Below are positions 1-4,006 of a DNA stretch of 23,650 nt, one piece after another. The stretch spans positions 1 through 23,650 of IMG/VR virus record IMGVR_UViG_3300024308_000189, one strand, 5' to 3'. Each line of letters starts with the position of its first letter. Positions within the stretch are counted from its first letter, which is position 1. Source of the DNA: a virus. Both the position numbers and the translations under genes were made by a program. The notes below the pieces were generated by a model. That model searched no databases. It saw only the letters and a list, made by a program, of their open reading frames with translations, and was not told where the DNA came from.

Positions 1-877
1 TGAGCACGTGCTTGGCGAACTGGTCCAGCGCGTCCAGGTAGACGTTGGCGAAGAACTGGCTGGACAGGTTGCCGATCGGCAGGCCACGCCCGGCCGGGGC
101 GTTGGCCAGCCGCTTGTGCCGCGGCACCTGCGCCTGCTCGGCAGCAGTGGCCCGGTACTGGACACCAGCGTGTAGCGGCGAACGGCGCAGCAGTGCATGG
201 GTGGCCTGTTGGACGACCAGCGGTACGGCACGGCGCCGCAGGCGAGTGCGCAGCATCCGCCACAGGGTAGCCCGGTGGATGCTGTTGAAGAAATTGGCCA
301 CGTCGAGCTGCAGATACCAGCCACCACCCTGGCCGCTGTGCACCTGGCGCACGAACTGCTGGGCCCTGCGTACGGCCGCATGGCTGCCGCGGCCCTTGCG
401 GTTGGCGTAGCTGTCGTGGATGAACGTCGGCTCCCACAGCGCTTCCAGCTGCGGCACCAGCCAGTGGTGCACGACGCGGTCGGCGAAGTCCGGCGCATGG
501 ATCTCGCGAGCCTTCGGGCGGGTTGCCACGAAGCACGTCGAGGGCCGTGGCTCCCAGCGGCCGGCCAGCAGCTCGCGCTGCAGCTGCAGCAGGCCGTCGG
601 CCCAGCGATGGTCGAATCGCAGCTGGTTGAAGCTCGGAACCTTCTGGCGGCGCGCACGCCGCCATGCCTGGTACAACTCCTGCAGGCCTACCTCTCCCTG
701 AAACTCACCGGCACGACGCACGGCCAACGCGAACCCGTTGTTGTTGCGGTGGTTGTTGTTGACGTTGCCGTTGTTGAAATTGACGTTCCACGCGGACGCC
801 GAGGACCAGGCGGCCGCCTCCCCATACACTTGCGACCAGGCCGCGCAGCCCGGATGCGGATAGCGCGGGTTCGTCAT
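1..877 (-). CDS. DGR reverse transcriptase with in-frame TR extension (3' end outside window)
   Basis: This is an RNA-directed DNA polymerase of the diversity-generating retroelement class, which copies TR RNA into adenine-mutagenised cDNA for transfer to the VRs. The minus frame is open for 292 codons from ATG 877 to the window edge. Residues 25-56 are encoded by the TR. The RT domain starts near residue 65. Visible blocks are the motif around TRPKAREIHAPDFADRVVHH (119-138), motif A YLQLDVANFFNSI (188-200, catalytic Asp192), and GLPIGNLSSQFFANVYLDALD (265-285). The IGNLSSQ form is typical of DGR RTs, where many other RTs have QG...SP. The YxDD box should lie just beyond base 1. ATG 877 overlaps the avd stop (ATGA), so translation is probably coupled. 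No other in-frame ATG occurs before the palm domain. A GTG or TTG start after the TR cannot be excluded. Confidence 0.93.
   Translation of the reverse strand, partial: MTNPRYPHPGCAAWSQVYGEAAAWSSASAWNVNFNNGNVNNNHRNNNGFALAVRRAGEFQGEVGLQELYQAWRRARRQKVPSFNQLRFDHRWADGLLQLQRELLAGRWEPRPSTCFVATRPKAREIHAPDFADRVVHHWLVPQLEALWEPTFIHDSYANRKGRGSHAAVRRAQQFVRQVHSGQGGGWYLQLDVANFFNSIHRATLWRMLRTRLRRRAVPLVVQQATHALLRRSPLHAGVQYRATAAEQAQVPRHKRLANAPAGRGLPIGNLSSQFFANVYLDALDQFAKHVL
703..816 (-). repeat. DGR template repeat (TR)
   Basis: This is the template copy of a 114-base repeat that recurs at 1346-1459 and 1804-1913 on the same strand. Read on the minus strand it is unusually rich in AAC: ten AAC codons occur in the RT reading frame at residues 31, 35, 36, 38, 40-42 and 45-47. 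AAC-rich templates are the DGR hallmark, since adenine mutagenesis gives many amino acids but never a stop codon. The conserved 3' part, GCCGTGCGTCGTGCCGGT, would act as the initiation-of-mutagenic-homing signal. The base that follows is G here but C in both VRs, which fits the IMH*/IMH distinction. The TR lies between avd and the RT domain. Confidence 0.95.
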
Positions 878-1317
878 GAGTTGGCCCCCGCAAGGGCGGT
901 ACGGGTACTCAGTTTCTTGCCGCGCTGCGCGACGCCATCGGCTTGCGCATTCTGGGCATGGGAGACTTCGCGCAGGCGGCGGCGCCAGCCGCCGGCCTGC
1001 ATGCCCAGCTCTTCGGCCAGGCGGATAAGCATTTCAAACTGGCGGAAGCTGGCGAAGGCGCCAACCCTTTTGCCGATCTGCAGGAGCTGCTTGAGAGCAT
1101 CGATATCCCGCACCAGCACCGCCACCCACCGCGCCTGCTCGGCGCGCTCACGCCAGGCATTGTTGGCGTTGATGAACACCAACTGGGAACGCGCGCGCAG
1201 GTCGCTGCCGATCTGGTAGCGATGGTAGCGAGCGAACCGGCGCACGGCGTTCTCGATCTCGACCGCCATGTGTTCGGCGGTCTTGATGATGGGTGGGGGC
1301 TGGAATCGGGAGGTCAT
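874..1317 (-). CDS. avd: Avd-like DGR accessory variability protein
   Basis: This is a 147-residue basic protein without signal peptide or membrane segment, predicted to be helical. It matches the Avd (four-helix-bundle) type in size, in the pattern of amphipathic helices across residues 10-115 and in position. In the Bordetella phage DGR, Avd forms a pentamer that binds the RT and is needed for cDNA synthesis. The start at ATG 1317 is preceded by GAGG at a suitable distance. The gene sits 26 bases downstream of target gene 1 and its TGA overlaps the ATG of the TR-RT frame by four bases. The assignment rests on context and fold pattern and has no catalytic motif behind it, but the setting between a target and an RT makes it strong. 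Confidence 0.85.
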   Translation of the reverse strand: MTSRFQPPPIIKTAEHMAVEIENAVRRFARYHRYQIGSDLRARSQLVFINANNAWRERAEQARWVAVLVRDIDALKQLLQIGKRVGAFASFRQFEMLIRLAEELGMQAGGWRRRLREVSHAQNAQADGVAQRGKKLSTRTALAGANS

Positions 1318-1343
1318 CGGGAAAGCCTCAGCAGAAGATCAAA

Positions 1344-1769
1344 TCACTGACCGGCACGACGCACGGCCAACGCGAACCCGTCGAGGCTGCGGTGGAGGTA
1401 GCCGACGCCGCCGCCGTAGAAATTGACGTACCACGCGGACGCCGAGGACCAGGCGGCCGGGGTCTTCGACCAGTACCAGTCGTTCTGGATGTCCTTGAAG
1501 AAGTCCGTGTTGATGGCCGGCGAGTAGCGGCTGCTGTCGATCAGCAGCTGATATTCCTCGATGGTCGGCAGATCCCAGTCGGTGTGGCCGAGCAGGTCCA
1601 GGGCCTTGGCGGCGGCCTCGCACTCGGCGTGCGGAACGTCGCTGTCCACGATGTTGGTGGCGGTGAAGGTCAGGCCGTAGTCGGGCAGCAGCACGGCGAC
1701 GTGGTCGGTGGCAGTGTCCGCCAGCTCGGAACCGTCGGCGGCGATCTTCTTGAACGTGATGGGGCTCAT
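1344..1769 (-). CDS. DGR target protein 1, DUF1566/Lcl-like with C-terminal VR
   Basis: The product has 141 residues. The ATG at 1769 is chosen because GGAG lies six bases upstream; the same frame runs further upstream but has no ribosome site there. Residues about 21-141 form one domain resembling DUF1566 (Lcl C-terminal), a family with a C-type-lectin-like fold that is used as a DGR target. Features are TDHVAVLLPDYGLTF, a DWDLPTIEEYQLLID segment, YWSKTPAAWSSASAW, and the end GFALAVRRAGQ. The variable positions fall at about residues 114-130. No signal peptide, transmembrane segment or collagen-like or coiled-coil shaft is seen, so it does not look like a whole tail fibre. It is a shorter paralogue of the next gene upstream. 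The ligand is unknown. Confidence 0.88.
   Translation of the reverse strand: MSPITFKKIAADGSELADTATDHVAVLLPDYGLTFTATNIVDSDVPHAECEAAAKALDLLGHTDWDLPTIEEYQLLIDSSRYSPAINTDFFKDIQNDWYWSKTPAAWSSASAWYVNFYGGGVGYLHRSLDGFALAVRRAGQ
1346..1459 (-). repeat. DGR variable repeat 1 (VR1)
   Basis: This is the 3' end of target gene 1, aligned base for base with the TR at an offset of 643. I count 15 substitutions in the diversified part, all at positions that are adenine on the template's coding strand. The flanking non-adenine positions are identical. All ten TR AAC codons are changed, giving Y, Y, G, G, G, Y, L, S, L and D in order. Outside the core the repeat ends at the CAG-TGA of the target gene, where the TR has GAG-TTT. 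Confidence 0.96.
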
Positions 1770-1801
1770 GGTTGCTCCAGGGAAAGGGTCAAAAGGGCCA
1801 A

Positions 1802-2350
1802 TTACTGACCGGCACGACGCACGGCCAACGCGAACCCGTCGTAGTCGCGGTGGCCGTCGTCGACGCTGCCGTAGCTGAAATTGACGCCCCACGCGGACGC
1901 CGAGGACCAGGCGCAAGGCGTGCTGGTCCAGTGCCAGCGGGGCAGCACGCCGGGGAACAGAGAGGGATCGATGGCCGGCTCATGGCGGGTGTCATCGACC
2001 AGAGCGGCCAGTTCGGAGCGAGTTGGCATACCCCAGTCGTCGTAGCCCAGCAGGCGCAGCTCGCTGCAAGCCTTCTCGCAGTCGGCTTGGCTCATCGGGT
2101 CACCATCGCTGTCGCCGATGGACTTGACCGCCCACATGAGGCCGGTGGCGTGGTCGATCACCGCGACGTGGTCGGTGCGCGGGTCGCTGCCGGCAGCGCT
2201 GGTGCCATCGGCGAACAGCTTCGTGTGGCCGACGGCGTACCGGTGGATGGACTGATCGTCATCGAGCTCGATCAGATGACCGGGGCGGAGGGTTTCGCTG
2301 GAGATGAAGATCTCCGCTTCGCCCTTGGTGCGGATGGTGATGGCGTTCAT
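1802..2350 (-). CDS. DGR target protein 2, DUF1566/Lcl-like with C-terminal VR
   Basis: The product has 182 residues and starts at ATG 2350, after an AAGGA ribosome site. The N-terminal half (about 1-58) includes a stretch rich in beta-prone residues and an acidic ELDDDQ segment that target 1 lacks. Residues 59-182 repeat the target 1 domain: TDHVAVIDHATGLMW, GYDDWGMPTRSELAALVDD, WHWTSTPCAWSSASAW and the invariant end GFALAVRRAGQ. Variable residues lie at about 155-171. No export signal is visible. It lies 32 bases upstream of target 1 in the same operon and 39 bases downstream of a phage gene of unknown function. Whether it is a virion, surface or cytoplasmic binding protein cannot be told from the sequence. 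Confidence 0.88.
   Translation of the reverse strand: MNAITIRTKGEAEIFISSETLRPGHLIELDDDQSIHRYAVGHTKLFADGTSAAGSDPRTDHVAVIDHATGLMWAVKSIGDSDGDPMSQADCEKACSELRLLGYDDWGMPTRSELAALVDDTRHEPAIDPSLFPGVLPRWHWTSTPCAWSSASAWGVNFSYGSVDDGHRDYDGFALAVRRAGQ
1804..1913 (-). repeat. DGR variable repeat 2 (VR2)
   Basis: This is the 3' end of target gene 2, aligned with the TR at an offset of 1101. I count 12 substitutions, all at template adenines. All ten AAC codons are altered, giving G, S, Y, S, D, D, G, D, Y and D in order. VR2 differs from VR1 at nine of the ten codons, so the two genes were diversified separately and not copied from each other. Identity with the TR ends four bases earlier at the 5' side than for VR1. 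Confidence 0.96.
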
Positions 2351-2389
2351 TGGGTTTTCCTTGATGGATGTCGCGTTGAAGTGCGGCTA

Positions 2390-3121
2390 TCAGGCCGTGT
2401 GGTGCTTGGTGTGATGCGCCGACTTGGGGGTGGATAGTTCGCGCTTGTTGAGCGCTTCGATTGCCAGGGGCCGCACGAACCACGCCGCAAGGCCGTCCTC
2501 GGTCTCGCCCAGCCACGCGAGGCGCCAGTCCTCGCCAGGTGCCTCTGGCTTCCAGTCGTGCAACTCCTGTGCGGCGCTGTAGACGCCAGATCCGATGCCC
2601 TCTTCGGAAAACTCGCCTTCGACGACGACCAAGTCGAAGCCCTGTGCGAGGAACAGCGGCCGCAGCGATACCTCGCGACCGTCAGCCCACATGGGCACGT
2701 CCGGGTGGCACAGAATCTCGCCGTCGGCATTGCGCGCTGGGAGGCGACTCGGGTGATACAGGCCGCGCCACGGGTCGGCTGGATCGATCACGGTGCGGGT
2801 CTGATTCCTGACCAGCTCCAGCAGCTCGGTCGCCTGCGCCAGCCGGGCACGGGTGGTATCGCAGAGCGGTGTGTCGCCGTCCTGCAGGCTGCTACGCAGC
2901 GTCGAGACATGCGCGGCTACGGCGGCTTCGAACACGCGCAGATCCTGCAAACGCGGGAGGCGGTGATGCAGGTCACGCAGCGCGGTCTGGGCCTGGGCGA
3001 GAGTGATGGCCTTCGCCTGGTTCGGCAACCACACAGCTTCGACGGCGATCGCGCTGATCGTGTCGAATGCGTCGCGCAGGACGGGACAGTTCGTAGGGAG
3101 TTTCGTGAGGTTCGCGGTCAT
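2390..3121 (-). CDS. Phage protein of unknown function (243 aa)
   Basis: I do not recognise this protein. It is soluble, with an N-terminal helical half (about residues 1-105) rich in Leu, Ala and Arg that may form a coiled or helical bundle. A mixed C-terminal half (about 110-225) contains aromatic and acidic patches such as DPADPWRGLYHPSRLPARN and FDLVVVEGEFSEEG. The tail is basic and His-rich (SAHHTKHHTA). The start ATG 3121 overlaps the upstream stop as ATGA, which fixes the frame and suggests coupled translation. It is the last gene before the DGR target genes and shares their direction. No catalytic motif is evident. Confidence 0.75.
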   Translation of the reverse strand: MTANLTKLPTNCPVLRDAFDTISAIAVEAVWLPNQAKAITLAQAQTALRDLHHRLPRLQDLRVFEAAVAAHVSTLRSSLQDGDTPLCDTTRARLAQATELLELVRNQTRTVIDPADPWRGLYHPSRLPARNADGEILCHPDVPMWADGREVSLRPLFLAQGFDLVVVEGEFSEEGIGSGVYSAAQELHDWKPEAPGEDWRLAWLGETEDGLAAWFVRPLAIEALNKRELSTPKSAHHTKHHTA

Positions 3122-3510
3122 TGGCGGGCCTGATCGAATTGGGTGAAGGTGTTGACGAAGGCGCCGGCGAGCGGTGCATTGCAGACGGCATGCGCTTCGT
3201 CGGCAGGGCGACAGGGAAACGGCGGCGTGCGGCGGTACCGGCAGTTGGGGTCGTTGGCGTACTTGCCGTCCTTGAGTCGAATTACCTGGTACTCGGGGAA
3301 CGCCTCATCAGGCAGCACCTGACGTGCCTCCTGCATCAGCGCGACGAATCGCGCCTGCCACTCGACCGGCATCGACTGCAGGGTGCGTCGCGGCACCACG
3401 TGGTAGGCCGCGCGACTGAGGCCGAAGGCGTGCCATGCCGGGCCATCGGAGTAGGTGCTGCCGGGCCTGCCCGGTTCAGAGACGGTCGCTGCGTGCGATT
3501 CGTTTCTCAT
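3118..3510 (-). CDS. Phage protein of unknown function (130 aa)
   Basis: The start is placed at ATG 3510 because GAGG precedes it by about six bases. An upstream in-frame ATG at 3552 would overlap the previous gene and lacks a ribosome site. The protein is soluble. Its central part (WQARFVALMQEARQVLPDE) looks helical, and a short region has two cysteines (NCRYRRTPPFPCRP), possibly a metal or structural pair. It ends in ATGA with the next gene. I find no family I can name. Position in the leftward phage operon is the only functional clue. Confidence 0.7.
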   Translation of the reverse strand: MRNESHAATVSEPGRPGSTYSDGPAWHAFGLSRAAYHVVPRRTLQSMPVEWQARFVALMQEARQVLPDEAFPEYQVIRLKDGKYANDPNCRYRRTPPFPCRPADEAHAVCNAPLAGAFVNTFTQFDQARQ

Positions 3511-3517
3511 GGTTGCC

Positions 3518-4006
3518 TCAGTCGATTTCATGGACTGCCACGCGCTCTGCATAGCTGCCGTGGCTGGCCGCGTGACGGCTCATCAGCGGACGAAGCGGGG
3601 TGTGGCCCAGCACCTCGATGTGCCCGCCCGCTGCGAGGGAGGCGTCCAGGTCGTCGGCCAACTGCTGCCGGTCCAGTTCCCGGTGACGGATCGTGGTCGC
3701 GGCGTCACTGACGCCGGTGAGCAGGCCAACCGCGCAGGTCGGCTGCGCCCGGGCAGGTGCCGCGCGCAGCGGCGCGATCGCATGTTGCGTGTGGCTGGAT
3801 AGGCGCCAGATCCCGCGCACGCCGGAGCGATGGCAGATAGCCTGGCCGCTGCGTGCCAACCCCTTCAGCGTGTAGCCGATAGCCTGGTGGGTGCTGTTGA
3901 TGCGGCCAGCGGTCTTGATCTGTTCGACCGTTGCGCCTTGCGGGAACATGGACAGGACCTTGCGCACTTCGGCGGCTCGGCCGATCTGTTGCGGGCGGGC
4001 GCTCAT
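3518..4006 (-). CDS. Putative winged-helix DNA-binding phage protein
   Basis: The product has 162 residues. About residues 8-68 read as a winged-helix or HTH domain: RAAEVRKVLSMFPQGATVEQIKTAG, then HQAIGYTLKGLARSGQAI as the recognition-type helix, then HRSGVRGIWRLSS as a wing. The C-terminal part is Ala/Arg/His-rich with no named domain. A role in regulating or assisting replication of the phage is an inference from the fold alone. The start ATG 4006 overlaps the upstream TGA by four bases. There are seven bases between this stop and the next gene's start. Confidence 0.65.
   Translation of the reverse strand: MSARPQQIGRAAEVRKVLSMFPQGATVEQIKTAGRINSTHQAIGYTLKGLARSGQAICHRSGVRGIWRLSSHTQHAIAPLRAAPARAQPTCAVGLLTGVSDAATTIRHRELDRQQLADDLDASLAAGGHIEVLGHTPLRPLMSRHAASHGSYAERVAVHEID

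Follow-up and report, generated by a model that had tools for sequence, protein, structure and literature searches.

A diversity-generating retroelement on a virus contig with a template repeat that is probably translated as part of its reverse transcriptase

The template repeat (TR) of diversity-generating retroelements (DGRs) has been described as non-coding (PMC4372165; PMC8867640), and an intergenic position has been named as a trait of predicted TRs (PMC8144416). In DiGReF structural group 3 the TR overlaps an end of the annotated reverse transcriptase (RT) open reading frame (ORF), and, as far as the available text of these sources goes, DGRs with more than one variable repeat (VR) make up about one seventh (PMC3521204) or 28.6% (PMC6642488) of the total, with about 13% having two targets (PMC10743442). 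Two-target DGRs and overlap of the TR with an annotated RT ORF are already known, and it is against these that we consider the DGR found at the left end, on the minus strand, of the IMG/VR virus contig IMGVR_UViG_3300024308_000189, which is 23,650 bp long (the window). Judging by its TR and VR sequences, one TR serves two targets with a lectin fold by adenine-specific replacement, and the predicted RT frame runs from an ATG that overlaps avd through all of the TR into the enzyme. It is likely, in our view, that this is a DGR variant with a translated template, the TR being inside the RT frame and a single RNA serving as both message and template.

The RT gene of the window (2-877, minus strand as for all features given here; residues 1-292; RVT_1, E 2.9e-8; PHROG reverse transcriptase, E 2e-60) starts with an ATG that overlaps the stop codon of avd as ATGA (874-877). 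The TR, which is 110 nt long with 23 adenines, lies at 707-816 in the frame of both the RT and the targets, and about residues 22-57 of the window RT are encoded by it. The avd gene (874-1317) encodes an accessory protein of 147 aa (PHROG Avd, E 2e-12), although its Pfam bAvd score of 23 bits is under the cut-off of 40. A preliminary description of the window had placed an RT, a TR, avd and two VR-bearing target genes on the minus strand, and the ORF, domain and TR/VR evidence agree on this, but that description had overlooked the position of the TR within the reading frame of the RT as well as the conserved RNA structure around the RT start. It had also called the DGR complete, which it is not, as the contig edge truncates the RT after residue 292, 8 residues short of the YVDD in the relative L082, which is 99% identical and has YVDD at residue 300 of 455.

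Relatives were sought with the RT and with Avd, 175 of 176 loci having an RT match on the + strand, and 92 distinct loci (window included) with an RT matching from residue 1 were retained once 20 duplicate cassettes had been dropped. The DGR RT motif G.P.G...SQ is present in 88 of these and YVDD in 86, the SQ motif also being found in the RT of the window. The ATG of the RT overlaps the avd stop as ATGA in every one of the 92 loci and an SD-like (Shine-Dalgarno-like) motif precedes it in 90. Between this ATG and the RT domain no locus has a stop in the RT frame, whilst the other two frames are interrupted in 57 and in all 92 loci. A non-coding TR, which is usual for DGRs but does not define them, is thus apparently not what these loci have, the RT frame being open through the TR in 92 of 92. 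The spacings between the ATG, a conserved AAG motif, the TR junction and the RT domain vary by multiples of three, with the single odd value traced to a second GTGAGT in L134, and of the 182 VRs carried by these loci 178 are in the frame shared by the TR and RT, 4 are without a callable ORF and none is in conflict.

The 3' junction of the TR is also in keeping with an RT frame that is read through. In the window the junction is GGTGAGTTTCAGGG (692-709), which resembles IMH* (IMH, initiation of mutagenic homing), and the VRs instead have GTCAGT followed by a stop. The listed TR junctions are all GTGAGTNT without a stop, whereas the VRs in the listed classes have GTCAGT and then the stop of the target (164 cases). 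As the TR junction lacks the target stop the RT reads through, and the difference of GTGAGTNT in the TR from GTCAGT plus stop in the VR would correspond to that between IMH* and IMH.

In an RT tree the 92 loci form a clade of 97 leaves (support 0.68) together with L018, L122, L127, L137 and L143, with L022-L024 as its sister group, and the clade is mostly from Stenotrophomonas, Xanthomonas and their relatives. In three of the five additional members (L127, L137 and L143) the contig starts only within the gene. Within the sister group an ORF of L024 (L024:5713-5985) starts from the homologous ATG, crosses the TR in frame and ends before the RT, after an apparent inserted repeat.

The end of avd, the ribosome-binding site of the RT, the RT start and the edge of the TR all fall within a structured RNA element (model R1, 809-974). 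An alignment of the avd end and RT start was made from 49 of 58 diverse loci (L010, L101, L117, L125, L130, L139, L154, L159 and L161 were left out), and its fold has 25 pairs, 20 of them with two-sided changes. Paired cells reach 97.3% against 81.0% in shuffled alignments and 30-53% when the structure is slid, the structure being favoured against the slid versions because it was derived from the same alignment. There are 167 two-sided cells against 40 when shuffled, a number reached in 0 of 500 shuffles. Helix 3 of this covariation fold (899-905 with 821-827) encloses the RT start, and helix 4 (884-897) is a hairpin in which the Shine-Dalgarno strand of the RT (884-888) is paired to 893-897, this strand being GRGGY or AGGGC in 49 of 49 loci. 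Synonymous change drops over the same region, to 0.06-0.07 in the last windows of avd, where the remaining avd stretch has 0.14-0.37, and to 0.01-0.04 across RT codons 1-60, where codons past 80 have 0.19-0.46. On the other side of the TR, 3' of it, no conserved structure was found (-0.04 kcal/mol).

Model R1, the E-values of which are rough, matches L018 (120 bits) and many distant DGRs. It adjoins the TR (-11 to +6 nt) in all 11 distant DGRs examined, in which the TRs were located independently of R1, so that the element is older than the clade, with the start of the RT having apparently shifted into it. When 398 genomes from the order of G001 were searched, 16 matched R1 and 10 exceeded 120 bits. 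Nine of those ten have the ATGA start and an in-frame TR and the tenth is the genome of L018, with only L192, in which the RT start and frame are the same, being new to the analysis. Weak R1 matches (L195-L200, E 1e-6 to 1e-3), which have no RT nearby, were not counted as members. Even in distant DGRs, then, the TR has its 5' edge marked by a covarying element that had no match in the Rfam release used.

Membership of the RT-15 RNA family (RF03018) was considered and rejected, there being no match up to E 1 in positions 1-3600 of the window, and none at the gathering score in the clade loci L013, L018 and L142. The window also gave two Rfam hits below threshold, Guanidine-II (E 0.15) and mir-2071 (E 0.74), which were treated as chance. 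A nearly invariant ACTGAGT stands upstream of the TR and a TCAG just after it (window 905-920 and 692-709), and the CUGA and UCAG of these could pair across the TR, their variation being too low for a test of covariation.

The alternative that survives best is that this is an ordinary multi-target DGR of DiGReF group 3, the TR of which may be translated, but in which the overlap has no functional meaning. In line with this, four of five loci from phages with the RT-15 RNA also have an in-frame ATG inside the TR. However, the layout is fixed in 92 loci, which share a start, a frame and an RNA fold, whereas in distant DGRs agreement between the RT and target frames is at the level of chance (11 of 37 unambiguous loci) and 22 of 52 more distant loci (L018 among the 52) have a stop within the TR in the RT frame. 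We think it unlikely, if still worth keeping in mind, that the overlap is of this ordinary kind.

It is more improbable again that the TR is untranslated, with the RT being initiated, as in other DGRs, from an internal GTG or TTG located where the TR ends or directly behind it, and with the open frame upstream resulting from a high GC content and from constraint on the RNA. The constraint at the protein level is indeed weak before and in the TR (pN/pS, the ratio of non-synonymous to synonymous polymorphism, is 0.60 before the TR, 0.44 in the TR and 0.09 in the RT for close pairs), the tail is predicted to be disordered (RT residues 1-60, pLDDT, the predicted local distance difference test, 33-41, with the RT fold beginning at about residue 61), 75 of the 92 loci have at least one in-frame ATG, GTG or TTG after the TR in the stretch examined, and in distant DGRs the RT start codon is often just after the TR. 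Yet no such codon is conserved between the TR and the RT domain, 17 of the 92 loci being without any, whilst the ATGA is invariant, the other two frames are closed to the extent given above and L018 restores its frame with two shifts. Least probable of all is a frame-lock, whereby the TR would share its frame with targets and RT so that a nonsense or frameshift change in the TR kills the RT and cannot spread to the targets, as although 178 of 182 VRs share the frame and none conflicts, one inherited layout suffices to explain this and L018, with its three VRs, has an RT frame unlike the target frame on the TR, and the idea was rejected as not needed.

There are a number of observations that weigh against a translated template. 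The loci were selected with tblastn for a match that begins at residue 1, and such a selection is biased towards in-frame cases. Within the clade L122, the sequence of which holds an N, has a frame change near its start, though with an in-frame ATG still before the TR, and L018, with an RT 74% identical, crosses the TR in a frame other than that of its targets. The weak constraint on residues 2-57 means that the openness of the frame could partly reflect RNA constraint, and internal GTG or TTG starts of the RT could be used in many loci. The canonical GC-rich hairpin that follows the VR, which is known from Bordetella phage BPP-1 and many phage DGRs but does not define DGRs, is also not apparent, perfect stems of at least 6 being present after 7 of 179 VRs compared with 2 of 179 shuffled. 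The RT of L018 does stay open from the ATG to the RT through two compensating shifts, which suggests that it is continuity of the frame and not the peptide that is kept.

If the template is translated as we favour, the RT would be translated from the ATGA by coupling to avd, coupled initiation being generally known from ATGA overlaps, and decoding of the TR RNA would give the RT an N-terminal tail, disordered and about 60 residues long. In the fold of the conserved element, this RNA would also be the template that RT-Avd copies. The sequence of the tail is probably unimportant, with the unbroken RT frame and the RNA fold being what is kept. As the ribosome-binding site of the RT is paired in the fold, an RNA molecule should be subject to competition between being translated and being used as template, which is the least certain step of the scheme, and a switch between the two is a plausible hypothesis. 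A more tentative extension, to which we would give somewhat less than an even chance, is that the RNA has two exclusive fates, as translated message or as folded template, with a brake on mutagenesis. Ribosomes finishing avd would open the fold, restart at the ATGA and decode the TR as the tail of the RT, while RNA free of ribosomes would fold, hide the RT start and become template. Copying by RT-Avd would then remove that RNA as a messenger for RT, providing a built-in brake, and such a system may have originated when the RT start moved into the older fold of the template RNA. In a clade whose start site and coding sequence fall in the same nucleotides as the template and the structured RNA, the way in which a DGR balances making the enzyme against using the template becomes directly testable.

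The VRs of the window lie within target gene 1 (VR1, 1350-1459) and target gene 2 (VR2, 1808-1913) and differ from the TR by 15 and 12 mismatches respectively. All 27 are at adenines of the TR, for which the probability would be about 10^-18 if mismatches were spread evenly over the 110 nt, of which 23 are A. Of the ten adenine-bearing codons that are altered in one or both VRs, nine are unlike between VR1 and VR2, exactly as the preliminary description had it. That description had also looked to a comparison of VRs across relatives as support for active diversification, and such a comparison does place the changes at adenines. In the 27 of the 92 loci that have a TR within 2 nt of that of the window, all 49 VRs are distinct from one another. 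The 23 adenine columns account for 705 of the changes and the remaining 83 columns for just 4, rather than there being a scatter over non-adenine positions. The adenine columns contain A 420, G 418, T 206 and C 83 times, and no stop codons were found in these 49 VRs. It is solely from this diversity of the VRs that we infer retrohoming activity. Several VRs are followed by a motif resembling TTGGCC(C)TTTTG, as at 1785-1807 of the window, in the place of the GC-rich hairpin.

Target gene 1 (1344-1769) encodes a protein of 141 aa (Lcl_C, a C-type lectin fold, E 1.6e-19) and target gene 2 (1802-2350) one of 182 aa (Lcl_C, E 9e-24). The structure model of target 2 (pLDDT 86.7) is best matched by the C-terminal domain of Legionella Lcl (8q4e, E 3.4e-4), with C-type lectins coming next at weaker E-values. 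It was originally proposed that one TR feeds two paralogues of these lengths and, by implication, that this is rare; the first part stands, the second does not, as at least two targets are present in 74 of the 92 loci. Of the loci that share the 182 VRs, 58 have two, 17 have one, 15 have three and 1 has four, with none found in the 1 that is left, and since flanks or contig ends cut the loci off, these are minimum counts. Thus two targets were rejected as a surprising feature, being common in the 92 loci and known from surveys. By position 89 of the 182 VRs adjoin avd, 62 are second and 31 are remote, and when the proteins were clustered outside the VR 175 of 176 fell in one homologous group. 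In L134 one TR is accompanied by four diversified targets. Close relatives have a third target (136 aa) at a remote site, some 5.3-5.7 kb away from the RT (L083:34-441; in L176 at -5728 from the RT), and in the window no third target was found beyond the two known.

Next to the DGR, window 2458-3600 is 85% identical to Stenotrophomonas phage S1, and the adjacent genes (2390-3600) correspond to gp35-gp37 of that phage. Phage S1 is without a match across the DGR, and its gp32-gp34, a methylase and two unknowns, occupy the DGR position. No integrase was identified among the part of the window ORFs that was scanned, a search of a plasmid collection gave no match, and no RT of at least 60% identity was found among 50,697 phage records. 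The term prophage used in the preliminary description can be kept in so far as the lineage is temperate, but this comes by way of relatives, namely bacterial contigs, the integrase of L083 and the integrase of the related phage S1. The evidence as a whole supports a DGR that diversifies two paralogous targets from one TR and that belongs to a lineage of temperate phages.

The five GenBank phages with the RT-15 RNA (Magia, LPPA56, Haboob, Cruim01 and SC_8_H2H8_2017) are like the window in having two VRs each and a structured RNA between avd and the TR that abuts the TR, a hairpin being followed by a multibranched domain. Their RTs are 38-43% identical to that of the window, and on the TR their RT frame is not consistently the frame of the targets. 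In the loci of these phages (L178-L182) the ATG of the RT frame inside the TR, seen in four of five, is +31 to +43 from the TR start, and that frame in L182 is not open until within the TR, the overlap in these phages being different and partial. The RT profile of the window DGR matches the solved RT 8ub7 (E 3e-63), which we take to be the BPP-1 enzyme, and the window RT is about 29% identical to the RT of BPP-1. DiGReF group 3 is defined by the annotated ORF only, with no conserved start, frame or RNA fold reported in the available text (PMC3521204), and neither a conserved translated TR nor the R1 RNA was found to have been reported earlier in the available parts of the literature searched, which does not settle priority. 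The post-VR hairpin described for BPP-1 (PMC3240598) was not found in the window clade. As far as the available accounts of it go, the BPP-1 DGR, with its order of avd-TR-brt, is otherwise alike in having an RT, Avd, a TR upstream of the RT domain, adenine mutagenesis, a C-terminal VR and an avd 3' end that flanks the TR (PMC12875486), but whereas in BPP-1 a spacer separates the TR and brt, in the clade of the window the start of the RT is upstream of the TR.
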